In this document: positions 32,587-36,434 of the stretch, piece after piece
Layout: each line of letters opens with the position of its first letter
Numbering within the stretch: position 1 is the first letter of the stretch
Origin: Methanobrevibacter sp.
GTDB lineage: Archaea; Methanobacteriota; Methanobacteria; Methanobacteriales; Methanobacteriaceae
Length of the DNA stretch: 43,699 nucleotides
Reading direction: 5' to 3'
Assembly: GCA_017434555.1 (NCBI GenBank)
Contig: JAFRFB010000024.1
Span: forward strand, 1 to 43,699
Notes under the pieces: model-generated
Seen by the model: only the letters and a program-made list of their open reading frames with translations
Databases searched by the model: none
Told to the model about the DNA's origin: nothing
Translations under genes and position numbers: made by a program

Positions 32587-33501
32587 TTATTTTTTTAAGT
32601 CATGATATGCTGAAGTTGCTGCAACCGCTCCTTCGCCGCATGCTACAACCCACTGTTTCAGGCCAACACAGACATCACCGATTGCATATACATAATCAAC
32701 ATTCGTTTTCTGCTCCTTATCAATTATGATATGTCCGGATTCATCCAAATCAACACCTAACTGGTCAGCGAGTTCTGTGTGAGGGATATATCCTACACTT
32801 ATGAATATGCCGCTGATAGGTAAGTCAGTCAGTTCTCCGGTTTGCGTGTCCTTTAAAACGACACTTTCAACAAGCATGTCACCTTTAATTTCTTCAACAA
32901 CTGCATTATAGATTACATTAATGCCTTCCTCATGAATCTGGTCCTGCAAGTGCTTTTGGGCTCTGAATTCATCTCTTCTGTGAACCAATGTAACATTGGC
33001 TCCCAGGTTATTCAGGTATAAGGCTTCCTGAAGGGCGCTGTTTCCTCCGCCCACCATGATTATGTCTCTTCCCTGGAAGAAAAATCCGTCACAGGTTGCA
33101 CAGTAGCTGACTCCTTTTCCCTTGAATTCATCTTCTCCTTTTGCATTCAGTTCCCTGTGGGAACTTCCAGTAGCAAGAATCACAGTTTTAGATAGATAGG
33201 AATCCTTGTCCGTTTTAATCGTGAACCGGTATTCATCGTCATTTTTTATGATTTCCGATACGTTTTCATTTTCATGAAGATTACAGTTCTTTATTGCCTG
33301 CTCTTTCATTTTTTCAACAAGTTCCAGACCTGAAATATTATCAAAACCAGGATAGTTTTCCATTTGAGGAACTTCACGGCCGATTCCTCCGGCAAGACCC
33401 TTATCAAGAATTAGGTTTTTCGTTCCCTGACGTCCAGCATAAATACCTGCTGTTAGACCGCCAGGTCCCGCACCCACTATTACAATATCATATTTTTCCA
33501 T
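32587..33501 (-). CDS. trxB: Thioredoxin reductase (FAD, CATC type)
   Basis: The 304-residue protein has the FAD-binding GAGPGGLTAGIYAG (residues 10-23), the redox pair CATC (Cys134, Cys137) and the NAD(P)H-binding GGGNSA (about 152-157) with HRRDEFRA downstream. The C-terminal FAD motif is YAIGDVC. It keeps thioredoxin or a similar partner reduced. The gene follows the peroxidase gene by 15 nt, so the two likely work as one peroxide-removing pathway. Confidence 0.92.
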   Translation of the reverse strand: MEKYDIVIVGAGPGGLTAGIYAGRQGTKNLILDKGLAGGIGREVPQMENYPGFDNISGLELVEKMKEQAIKNCNLHENENVSEIIKNDDEYRFTIKTDKDSYLSKTVILATGSSHRELNAKGEDEFKGKGVSYCATCDGFFFQGRDIIMVGGGNSALQEALYLNNLGANVTLVHRRDEFRAQKHLQDQIHEEGINVIYNAVVEEIKGDMLVESVVLKDTQTGELTDLPISGIFISVGYIPHTELADQLGVDLDESGHIIIDKEQKTNVDYVYAIGDVCVGLKQWVVACGEGAVAATSAYHDLKK

Positions 33502-33516
33502 AATTACACAACAGTA

Positions 33517-34056
33517 TTATAATAATGCCTTAATGGCCTCTTTAACGTCACCTAAATCTTCAGTTGGTTCAAATCTTTGAACAACATTACCTTCACGGTC
33601 AACTAAAAATTTGGTGAAATTCCATTTTATATCATTATTGTCCTTATAATGTCTGTCAACAGCTTTTAAAACCAATTTAAGTTTTGTTGCTCCTTTACCA
33701 GTAATATCTTTAAATGGCTGTTCGTTTTTAAGATATTCGTATAATGGATCTGCATTTTCACCGTTTACATCAATCTTATCAAATATTTTATAAGGAACTA
33801 ACCATTTGTTACGGCAGACCTCAGCGATTTCTTCAGTTGATCCTGGAGCCTGTTTACCGAATTGGTTGCATGGGAAATCCAAGATTTCAAAACCTTCTTC
33901 GTTGAATTCAGCATATATTTCATTTAATTCTGTGTATTGTGGAGTAAAACCACATTTAATTGCTGAATTAACAATCAACAACACTTTTCCTTCATATTCA
34001 CTTAAGGAAACCATGTTTCCTTCACCATCTTTTACTTCAAAATCATATACTGACAT
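33517..34056 (-). CDS. Glutathione-peroxidase-family (thioredoxin-dependent) peroxidase
   Basis: The 179-residue protein has the GPx catalytic set: Cys35 in SAIKCGFTPQY (Cys in place of selenocysteine), Gln65 in FPCNQFG, and Trp145-Asn146 in KWNFTKF. Cys81 (EVCRNK) is a candidate resolving cysteine, as in GPx forms that use thioredoxin. Methanogens lack glutathione, so thioredoxin from the adjacent reductase pathway is the likely donor. GPx is rare in archaea, which suggests gain from bacteria. The TATA box is TTTATATA (34113-34120), with an iron-box-like palindrome just upstream. Confidence 0.9.
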   Translation of the reverse strand: MSVYDFEVKDGEGNMVSLSEYEGKVLLIVNSAIKCGFTPQYTELNEIYAEFNEEGFEILDFPCNQFGKQAPGSTEEIAEVCRNKWLVPYKIFDKIDVNGENADPLYEYLKNEQPFKDITGKGATKLKLVLKAVDRHYKDNNDIKWNFTKFLVDREGNVVQRFEPTEDLGDVKEAIKALL

Positions 34057-34131
34057 AGTTTTATCCCCCTATTATTTTAATTAGGACTTGATTTTATTAT
34101 GTAAAATGGAGATATATAAATATTGTTAAAA

Positions 34132-34147
34132 TTTAGGATAACCTAAA
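34132..34147. promoter_or_regulatory. DtxR/IdeR-like palindrome, copy 1, between two divergent TATA boxes
   Basis: TTTAGGATAACCTAAA has the dyad TTTAGG-N4-CCTAAA and resembles the TTAGG..A.CCTAA core bound by iron-dependent DtxR/IdeR-family repressors, which exist in archaea. It sits 11-12 bp from the gpx TATA box (34113-34120, minus) on one side and from TTTATATA (34160-34167, plus) on the other, so one bound regulator could affect both promoters. Confidence 0.6.
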
Positions 34148-34159
34148 AAAATGAAAAGC

Positions 34160-34167
34160 TTTATATA
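34160..34167 (+). promoter_or_regulatory. TATA box driving a rightward transcript into the non-coding gap
   Basis: TTTATATA preceded by GAAAAGC. Start expected near 34188. No ORF of coding size with an RBS follows for over 600 bp, so its product is likely an RNA. Confidence 0.5.
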
Positions 34168-34187
34168 CCATGAAATCTAACATTAAT

Positions 34188-34388
34188 ACAAGTGATGTAA
34201 AGTTTAGGATAACCTAAAAATAACATTGCTTTGACATACATTATTGTCCATATAACTCTTCAAATATATTAAATTAGTTTTACACAATTTTCTAATTTAA
34301 TAACTCGGAAAATTATATCTGCCAAATAAGATTTTCCAACGTACAGGTGTTTAATGTGCGATTGAACACCTCATATTATCTCTTTTTT
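34188..34388 (+). ncRNA. Predicted small RNA with three hairpins and a terminator
   Basis: From the expected start near 34188 to a U-run at 34383-34388, the plus strand has three stems. ATTAAATTAG pairs with CTAATTTAAT (34268-34277 / 34292-34301), GGAAAAT with ATTTTCC (34307-34313 / 34331-34337), and AGGTGTTTAA with TTGAACACCT (34345-34354 / 34362-34371, one G-T pair, loop TGTGCGA). The last stem is GC-richer than the surroundings and is followed by TCTCTTTTTT, as in an intrinsic terminator. AATTTTC (34286-34292) can instead pair with GAAAATT (34308-34314), so two exclusive folds exist. The class is not one I know. The boundaries are estimates. Confidence 0.45.
34203..34218. promoter_or_regulatory. 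DtxR/IdeR-like palindrome, copy 2, downstream of the rightward start
   Basis: The same 16 bases as copy 1 (TTTAGGATAACCTAAA), 71 bp further on. It covers about +15 to +30 of the predicted rightward transcript, a usual place for repression. Confidence 0.6.
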
Positions 34389-34801
34389 AAAAAATTCTTA
34401 TAGGAATATTAAATATTTTTCACTTCGAAATAATCTTAAAATAAAACATTAAAAGTATAATAAAGTGCTTAAACAGATTTTAATGAATTATTCTATCAAA
34501 TGAACACTCCTATTTTTTCAATTAATAAAAAAAATATCAAAATTAAGGAATGCTAAAATCAAATTTTTTCAATGTTGATTTTTAGTATATAACGATTAAA
34601 ATAAATATGTTATAAATGATTAAATTTAATAAAAACGAAAATATTTTTAATATTTATTTATATAAATAATTTTAAAGTAATATAATAATAAAATAAACTA
34701 TTTATGATTAATAATAAAAAAATTAATAGTAATAATCGATAATAAAATAAATTAATATCAATAAAAAACTTTATTAATTCATTTTTAAATACTATATAAA
34801 A
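34389..34801. other. AT-rich non-coding gap before the adhesin gene
   Basis: No gene is seen. The sequence is nearly all A and T in its second half. ATTTATATAAAT near 34656-34668 could be the TATA box of the adhesin gene, which would give a leader of about 125 nt; ACTATATAAA (34788-34797) is nearer but would start transcription beyond the RBS. Confidence 0.45.
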
Positions 34802-34814
34802 AGGAGGTGAAAAT

Positions 34815-36434
34815 ATAAAGAGATGGTTAATTTTATTAATTTTCATATGCTTTTTAGCGATTCCATGCGCATCTGCTGAAAATGTAACCATTGACAATAC
34901 AATGTCAATACAGGATGCAGTCGACAGCGTGCAGGATAGTGACACTATCTATCTGACTCCTGGAATATATACTGAATCAGGCATAAAAATTGATAAAAAT
35001 ATTACGTTACAAGGAATGGGAAATACAAGTGACATAATAATAGATGGTAATCATGCTAATACGATTATTTTAGTCAATTCTGTTTCAAAAGTCAAATTCT
35101 TCAACATTACCTTCATCAACGGAAAAGCTCCCGAATACGGTGGTGCAATACACTCAGAATTAGGTGGGCAAATCTACGTTGACAGTTGTGACTTTATCAA
35201 CAATACTGCAGGACATAACGGAGGAGCTATTGATATTGCTGGAGAACAGCACAGAATTAAATGGCAAGTATTTACAAATTACGGATTTTTAAATGCTACA
35301 AATTGTAATTTCATCAATAATAAAGCCGGACACGATGGAGGTGCGCTCGCCACATACTGGGGAAACTCATATGTTTACAATTCTTATTTCACCCAAAATT
35401 ATGCAGAACGTGATGGAGGAGCACTTCGTGTAGGAATATATTCAACAACAACTACTGAAAACTGTACCTTTGACAACAACACTGCAAAAGAATGGGGAGG
35501 AGCTCTTTATAACTGGCCTGGTGAATTAACTGTTAACAACTGTACCATTTCAAATAATTATGCAGGTACACAGGGTGGAGCCATGATTACATCCGGACCG
35601 CTTACAGTTACCAATTCAAAAATCACAAACAATAAAGCTGAAAGAATGGGTGGTGTAATATTTATTGCAGAGGAGACTCCACATATTCCATCAACCGTTG
35701 TATTTGAAAACAACATTATTGAAGGAAATACTGCAAAACGTGGATCTTTAGTTTATGTTGATGAAACAACTGCAATAGCAACCAATTTCAATGGGAACTC
35801 ATGGGATATCGACCCGACAAGCGATGACTGGGCTAAAGCATTTATTACAAATGACTTAATTGACATGCCTACTCAATTCATCGATGATGCTGGTAATTTA
35901 ATTAAAGTAATTCCTAAAGAAATAGCAGAAGAAACTACCCCACATGTTCCTCAAGAAAAACCTGATCACAATCCGCTTCCAGAAATTGAAAATACAACTG
36001 AACCGACTAAGGATATTATTGAAAATACGACAGAAAATGATGTAGTTGATAACACAACACAAACTAATAATACTGAGGTTATCAATGAAAATACAAACAC
36101 AGAAAGTGAAACAAACAATCCAACAAATATCATTGAAGAAATTGTAGAAGCTGTTGAAGAGGTAATTGATAACGTTAACATACAAAGCAATTCGACTTCA
36201 ACAAACATTGAAAACAATAATATCGGTTTAAGTGAAACTCCAATTTCCAGTCAGGAAAGCGCTGATACCGCATCTGAAAACGGTGCCGATGATTCAAAAA
36301 CCGCACACGAAATTACAAAAAATGATGTTGCTAAAAAAACTACAACATCCCCGATTCCTTATGTAATTGCTATAATTGCGATTTTAGCAATTCTTGTATA
36401 CGGATATACCAGATATAATAAAAATGATGATTAA
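34815..36434 (+). CDS. Adhesin-like surface protein with beta-helix repeats; signal-peptide frame starts at ATA
   Basis: The frame upstream of the first in-frame ATG (34902) encodes a clear signal peptide, KRWLILLIFICFLAIPCASA, directly after a strong GGAGGTGA RBS (34803-34810). The codon 4 nt past this RBS is ATA (34815-34817), where ATG is expected. The mature part (about residues 25-310) is a right-handed beta-helix with seven GGA[ILM]-type rungs and N-C-T-F/I-x-N-N turns, like polymorphic outer-membrane and archaeal adhesin repeats. An acidic Asn/Thr/Glu linker (about 350-500) and a C-terminal membrane helix (PYVIAIIAILAILVYGYTRY) follow. If only ATG at 34902 is used, the signal is lost and export fails. 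A hairpin and T-runs end the gene. Confidence 0.8.
   Translation: MKRWLILLIFICFLAIPCASAENVTIDNTMSIQDAVDSVQDSDTIYLTPGIYTESGIKIDKNITLQGMGNTSDIIIDGNHANTIILVNSVSKVKFFNITFINGKAPEYGGAIHSELGGQIYVDSCDFINNTAGHNGGAIDIAGEQHRIKWQVFTNYGFLNATNCNFINNKAGHDGGALATYWGNSYVYNSYFTQNYAERDGGALRVGIYSTTTTENCTFDNNTAKEWGGALYNWPGELTVNNCTISNNYAGTQGGAMITSGPLTVTNSKITNNKAERMGGVIFIAEETPHIPSTVVFENNIIEGNTAKRGSLVYVDETTAIATNFNGNSWDIDPTSDDWAKAFITNDLIDMPTQFIDDAGNLIKVIPKEIAEETTPHVPQEKPDHNPLPEIENTTEPTKDIIENTTENDVVDNTTQTNNTEVINENTNTESETNNPTNIIEEIVEAVEEVIDNVNIQSNSTSTNIENNNIGLSETPISSQESADTASENGADDSKTAHEITKNDVAKKTTTSPIPYVIAIIAILAILVYGYTRYNKNDD

Follow-up and report, generated by a model that had tools for sequence, protein, structure and literature searches.

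We propose that positions 34190-34389 of the window, by which we mean the whole 43,699-nt stretch of Methanobrevibacter sp. DNA analyzed here, encode one paralog in a family of trans-acting small RNAs (sRNAs), each ~200 nt long, that extends across the genus, and that this RNA is probably repressed by a DtxR-type regulator and spares iron by a logic like that of RyhB and IsrR. From the sequence we infer the following course of events. When iron is plentiful, the single DtxR/IdeR-type repressor of this genome, loaded with Fe(II), would sit on two operators flanking the TATA box and transcription start and keep the sRNA gene off, and feoB and, at the window locus, gpx would be shut off together with it. 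When iron is short, repression would lift and the transcribed RNA would accumulate. An unpaired linker with an anti-Shine-Dalgarno (anti-SD) seed (AAUCUCCAAAA; AACUCUUCAAAU in the window copy) would then pair in vivo with the ribosome-binding sites of mRNAs that encode iron-rich proteins, the best candidates being those of the fwdF polyferredoxin, fdhA, and rubrerythrin, with the predicted outcome that translation is blocked and iron is spared. The initial annotation had offered two readings of this unit, an iron-repressed RyhB-like small RNA and a riboswitch-type leader of an adhesin gene; the former is strongly favored by a covarying family, by operators at nearly every copy and at feoB, by the preference of copies for positions next to feoB, by a single DtxR/IdeR-type protein, and by the anti-SD seed with its complementarity to start sites of Fe-S protein genes.

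The window locus and its RNA family

The features of the locus are as follows, in window coordinates.

32587-33501, minus strand: thioredoxin-disulfide reductase (TIGR01292, above cut-off), downstream of gpx
33517-34056, minus strand: gpx, glutathione-peroxidase family (NCBIfam NF007900, E 5e-51, below the curated cut-off); divergent neighbor sharing operator 1
34113-34120, minus strand: gpx TATA box, facing left (sequence reading)
34132-34147, no strand: operator 1, TTTAGGATAACCTAAA, an exact palindrome common to two promoters, that of gpx on the left and that of the sRNA on the right
34160-34167, plus strand: sRNA TATA box TTTATATA (sequence reading), its position kept across the family
34190-34192, plus strand: likely transcription start AAGTGATG, placed by the ~30-nt spacing 3' of the TATA box and the conserved 5' strand of P1
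34190-34231, plus strand: stem P1, AAGTGATGT/ACATTGCTT, enclosing operator 2; a stem of at least 4 bp in 70 of 77 copies
34203-34218, no strand: operator 2, the same palindrome, in the predicted transcribed 5' region, doubling as a 6-bp hairpin in the RNA
34247-34274, plus strand: unpaired linker with the anti-SD seed, AACTCTTCAAAT in the window copy and AATCTCCAAAA in the majority form
34269-34302, plus strand: hairpin P3, TTAAATTAG/CTAATTTAA, with CACAATTTT in its loop; 98.9% of cells paired, double changes in 7 of 9 pairs
34307-34336, plus strand: hairpin P4, GGAAAATT/GATTTTCC, with the conserved loop ATCTGCCAAA; double changes in 6 of 6 modeled pairs
34345-34389, plus strand: terminator hairpin P5, AGGTGTTTAAT/ATTGAACACCT, and tail ATATTATCTCTTTTTT; double changes in 9 of 9 pairs

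Much of the local architecture described by the initial annotation is borne out. The two palindromes are identical, exactly placed, and the sole pair in the window, where shuffles lead one to expect 0; divergent TATA boxes stand on either side of operator 1, each ~12 bp from it, as read from the sequence; and the gap to its right, said to hold no gene, has no open reading frame (ORF) of more than 14 codons in 34190-34390. The rightward unit passes through its stems to a last one at 34345-34372 and a T-run at 34383-34388, the end foreseen for it at 34388, and the gene that follows to the right is codirectional and starts at ~34.8-34.9 kb. With its TATA box, U-run terminator hairpin, lack of longer ORFs, and neighbors that are mostly convergent across the family, it is by sequence a stand-alone noncoding unit. 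The stems expected in the RNA are present but number five hairpins (P1 to P5) rather than three. An alternative pairing of AATTTTC (34286-34292) with GAAAATT (34308-34314) had also been suggested; the letters exist, but covariation does not support the pairing, the P3 loop CACAATTT being constant (72 of 82 copies) while the other strand covaries with its P4 partner.

The segment at 34132-34389 is one of four canonical paralogs, in its own genome, of a structured RNA family whose reality we regard as practically beyond doubt. The motif TTTAGG-N4-CCTAAA occurs at 18 places in the 3.15-Mb genome, compared with 2 for a reversed control; several of these sites are paired, 70 to 78 bp apart, and reading the paired loci revealed the paralogs, which span the whole unit of promoter and RNA. 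One lies at C20 next to a gene called SepF-like from its sequence only, and two lie at C81 (C81a and C81b), adjoining rubrerythrin; C91 has a diverged relative adjacent to feoB. This feo-side relative (L013:5280-5600) and its counterpart in genome G064 (L538:2950-3180) have the same promoter and a P3 with a UCUCUC loop, lack the ATCTGCCAAA hairpin, and precede a small ORF rich in Cys (MANRKKCCEAD... or MAKNCTSCKNE...). Copies on the rubrerythrin side, such as L010:4890-5089, have their terminator hairpin right against the rubrerythrin gene, which is convergent with them; a U-run is found on the opposite strand too, so the hairpin may terminate transcription in both directions.

An exact two-motif pattern retrieved 20 copies, which came from 9 genomes of this one genus; the reversed control retrieved none. 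The covariance search of other Methanobrevibacter genomes that the initial annotation had put forward as a check, made here with a model of the 3' part of the RNA (P3 to tail, 123 positions, P1 not included), found the family in 62 of 67 genomes of this Methanobrevibacter-type genus, with at least 150 copies, 1 to 5 per genome, and E values down to 6e-17. None of 84 genomes from 18 other genera of the order had a match under strict filters, which can lose weak ones. Scans of named genomes and of viruses used too loose a pattern and returned mostly chance matches; the model confirmed only one hit, in an uncultured Methanobrevibacter (L130; E 2.5e-13, palindrome present). An Rfam cmscan of 33900-35000 at E ≤ 1 returned only an unrelated chance match and no such family, RyhB (RF00057) included.

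The structure is overwhelmingly supported by covariation. In 82 aligned copies, 96.5% of cells are paired (86% in shuffles, 37 to 55% when slid) and 22 of 24 modeled pairs carry double changes, a covariation reached by 0 of 500 shuffles and exceeding every slid control, in an alignment fitted to the covariance model, which favors the modeled structure. RNAalifold on its own recovered P3 and P5, with double changes in 16 of 18 pairs; in P5, for example, GGTGTTT/AAACACC becomes GGCGTTT/AAACGCC. The sequence of P1 is variable and its pairing is kept (AGTGATGT/ACATTGCT, AAGTGA/TCACTT, AGAGA/TCTCT, AGTGGT/ACTACT), and in 56 of 77 copies P1 encloses the second palindrome. The motif TCTGCCA of the P4 loop is present in 71 of 82 copies.

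The linker and its candidate targets

The most conserved unpaired stretch of the RNA is the anti-SD sequence AAUCUCCAAAA, located between P2 and P3. It reads CTCCAAAA in 64 of 82 copies and AATCTCCAAAA in 48, and the AUCUCC of the linker is able to pair with the archaeal SD sequences GGAGGU or GGAGAU. The seed complement TTTTGGAGAT stands at three start sites in the same genome, those of fwdF (the polyferredoxin, NF042909, above cut-off), fdhA (TIGR01591, above cut-off), and a gene for a small secreted protein. Predicted pairing with the fwdF and fdhA sites, where 10-mers complementary to the seed lie, extends over 13 nt each, with energies for the C81a linker of -15.7 and -16.0 kcal/mol, respectively. 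When this linker was set against 143 other start windows of its own genome, rubrerythrin ranked first (-16.7) and a polyferredoxin of the window third; most related genomes preserve the site at rubrerythrin, GGAGATGTATATT. Genes for Fe-S proteins pair more strongly than other genes for all four linkers (P values of 0.075, 0.016, 0.0013, and 0.007; 7 versus 146 genes), in a ranking of 143 to 153 genes of this genome whose statistics are small and exploratory. The window copy belongs to a subtype with the diverged seed AACTCTTCAAAT, and this seed gave no clear iron-protein target among the start windows of its own genome. A second potential seed in the P4 loop, TTTGGCAGAT, was set aside: it had 11 nonself matches, none at the start codon of a recognized gene.

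Conservation of the targets has to be read with care. The fwdF site, AATTTTGGAGRT, is also conserved where the RNA is missing, in other genera, and its conservation therefore does not argue for targeting; the RNA may at most have evolved to make use of a preexisting site. Genomes of the genus without a model match also keep target sites, among them G064, which has a C91-type feo-side relative at its feo locus. Genus-wide, TTTTGGAGATT-N0-9-ATG has 298 matches in 67 genomes compared with 21 for the reversed control, an enrichment that we count only as suggestive of targeting because reversal makes a weak control for patterns of the SD type and because AATTTTGGAGRT is kept without the RNA. An anti-SD seed pairs with many mRNAs. 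On balance, a trans-acting, iron-sparing function exerted through the anti-SD linker appears likely to us, and we name fwdF, fdhA, and rubrerythrin as particular targets only tentatively, as complementarity predicts them.

The RNA could instead, under the same iron- and DtxR-dependent control, act by binding protein and not by pairing with mRNA, for example as a scaffold for an RNA-binding protein of the Sm-like or another type, or as its decoy. Beyond the linker, the loops ATCTGCCAAA of P4 and CACAATTTT of P3 are strongly conserved and the overall shape is kept, as such a role would have it, but the conserved linker is an anti-SD sequence with 13-nt matches at the start sites of iron proteins. 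Linker seeds also differ between paralogs, so a choice of targets fits better than one protein ligand, and we judge protein binding unlikely.

A second putative sRNA family was seen on the opposite strand, downstream of a gene whose product resembles diphthine synthase (L540-L549), in nine genomes (G036, G037, G043, G045, G047, G048, G056, G060, and G063). It comprises 1 or 2 tandem copies with a TATA-like box, a GGAAGTAG/CTACTTCC hairpin, and a C-rich tail, and no TTAGG operator was seen there; its CATTTTATAATCTCCAAAAT is complementary, without mismatch over 20 nt, to the ribosome-binding site and start codon of fdhA.

Operators and the putative repressor

At least one perfect TTTAGG-N4-CCTAAA palindrome lies within 260 nt upstream of 75 of the 82 copies; seven copies have none, among them one truncated at a contig end and several that match the model weakly or doubtfully. 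In 62 copies, two palindromes (at least 11 of 12 letters) are set 68 to 73 bp apart, the second inside the 5' hairpin region, and in most of the 82 the first operator is 27 to 29 bp 5' of the TATA box. The initial annotation had called for a search for further sites of this kind next to iron transport genes, and feoB provides them. A copy of the RNA is divergent from feoB in 35 of 62 genomes, less than 2 kb away and usually at 290 to 550 nt, and feoB carries the same operator in all nine loci read in the genus. The operator also occurs at most 500 bp upstream of feoB in 8 of 21 loci from other genera, and the iron box therefore predates the RNA.

The genome encodes a single DtxR-family protein, of 234 aa (PF02742, Fe_dep_repr_C, E 2e-27), whose structural relatives are IdeR (1fx7, E 3e-17), DtxR, and MntR. 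Its translation includes ACEMEH, a C-x2-E-H motif that we take to be the metal ligands of the DtxR/IdeR type, and we infer that this protein binds the palindromes and that its metal is iron. With operators at so many copies and at feoB, as expected of an iron-dependent repressor, the RNA is very probably under DtxR-type iron control.

Other genes preceded by the operator in this genome are feoBA, ABC exporters, a MATE transporter, and the Hmd/FeGP-cofactor locus. In the last of these (C91:20191; L012:3622-6571), the operator lies between a FeGP-cofactor biosynthesis gene (PF10113) and hmd, which suggests that [Fe]-hydrogenase belongs to the same regulon. Operators are also found directly 5' of an ABC-exporter gene pair (L008:5255) and of a second ABC transporter operon (L008:11636), systems with a possible role in metal or siderophore-like transport.

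The operator might sense another metal or the redox state (manganese, nickel, or peroxide), the RNA then serving a different stress response. The DtxR family includes MntR, the best NCBIfam matches of the repressor are to MntR models (all far below cut-offs), and copies are neighbored by gpx, thioredoxin reductase, and rubrerythrin. The presence of the operator at feoB in every locus read in the genus and in other genera nonetheless speaks for iron, as does the DtxR/IdeR type of the ligand motif, and we find another signal rather improbable.

Two further explanations have next to no likelihood. The codirectional gene on the right of the window copy is all that recommends the reading as a riboswitch or 5' leader for the adhesin gene that lies downstream, since the unit ends in a terminator at 34388 followed by a gap of >400 bp, copies occur at many unrelated loci, and the next gene is convergent at C20, C81a, and C81b and mostly so in other genomes. 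A mobile or repetitive MITE-like element with incidental palindromes would explain multiple copies, tandem ones included (L092, L094, and L091), but hardly the pairing-preserving covariation, the kept promoter spacing, the synteny across species, and the mere 1 to 5 copies per genome, and visual inspection showed no terminal repeats or target duplications.

Significance and relation to known systems

Methanogens of this group inhabit guts where iron is competed for, and their energy metabolism rests on polyferredoxins. If our reading is right, a genus-wide sRNA family that throttles formate use and CO2 reduction under iron shortage would tie iron supply to methane formation. Iron-sparing sRNAs are textbook knowledge in bacteria, and our literature search, which covered few subscription journals, found neither a description of an archaeal case nor one of this ~200-nt RNA family. 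We give about even weight to the fuller proposal that this is the first archaeal iron-sparing sRNA regulon, in which a multicopy family is controlled by a DtxR-type repressor, the second operator doubles as a 5' hairpin, and paralog-specific seeds each tune different iron-rich proteins of methanogenesis (formylmethanofuran dehydrogenase polyferredoxin and formate dehydrogenase).

RyhB of Enterobacteria (RF00057), like PrrF1/2 and FsrA, is a trans-acting sRNA controlled by a metal repressor that blocks the mRNAs of iron proteins and thereby spares iron. The methanogen RNA resembles it in the proposed iron-sparing logic and is unrelated to it in sequence, with a DtxR-type instead of a Fur regulator, another structure, a length of ~200 nt, 1 to 5 copies, and an archaeal host. 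The 11-mer CACATTGCTTC is common to Escherichia coli RyhB and one subgroup of the RNA (L038 and family copies); we considered homology on this account and rejected it. The 11-mer is confined to that subgroup, where it pairs with GTGATGT in P1, and is replaced elsewhere, so the sharing is a coincidence explained by the stem.

IsrR of Staphylococcus is an iron-repressed sRNA whose C-rich single strands pair with the SD/AUG region of iron enzymes, including fdhA (PMC9410917). IsrR is bacterial and controlled by Fur, whereas the methanogen RNA has a CUCC-containing linker and DtxR-type operators, and the two have no known sequence relation. Within the archaea, sRNA154 and sRNA41 of Methanosarcina mazei are intergenic sRNAs that mask the ribosome-binding sites of metabolic mRNAs (PMC5867862); they respond to nitrogen, belong to a different order, and have no known sequence or operator in common with the family described here. 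As for the operators, the likeness to DtxR/IdeR sites noted by the initial annotation is real in that actinobacterial sites such as TGAGGGGAACCTAACCTAA contain AGG-N4-CCTAA (PMC524172), but those are 19-bp compound palindromes, whereas the methanogen site is a 16-bp TTTAGG-N4-CCTAAA that is usually paired ~70 bp apart around a TATA box. By analogy, RyhB and IsrR are the functionally closest known relatives of the methanogen RNA.
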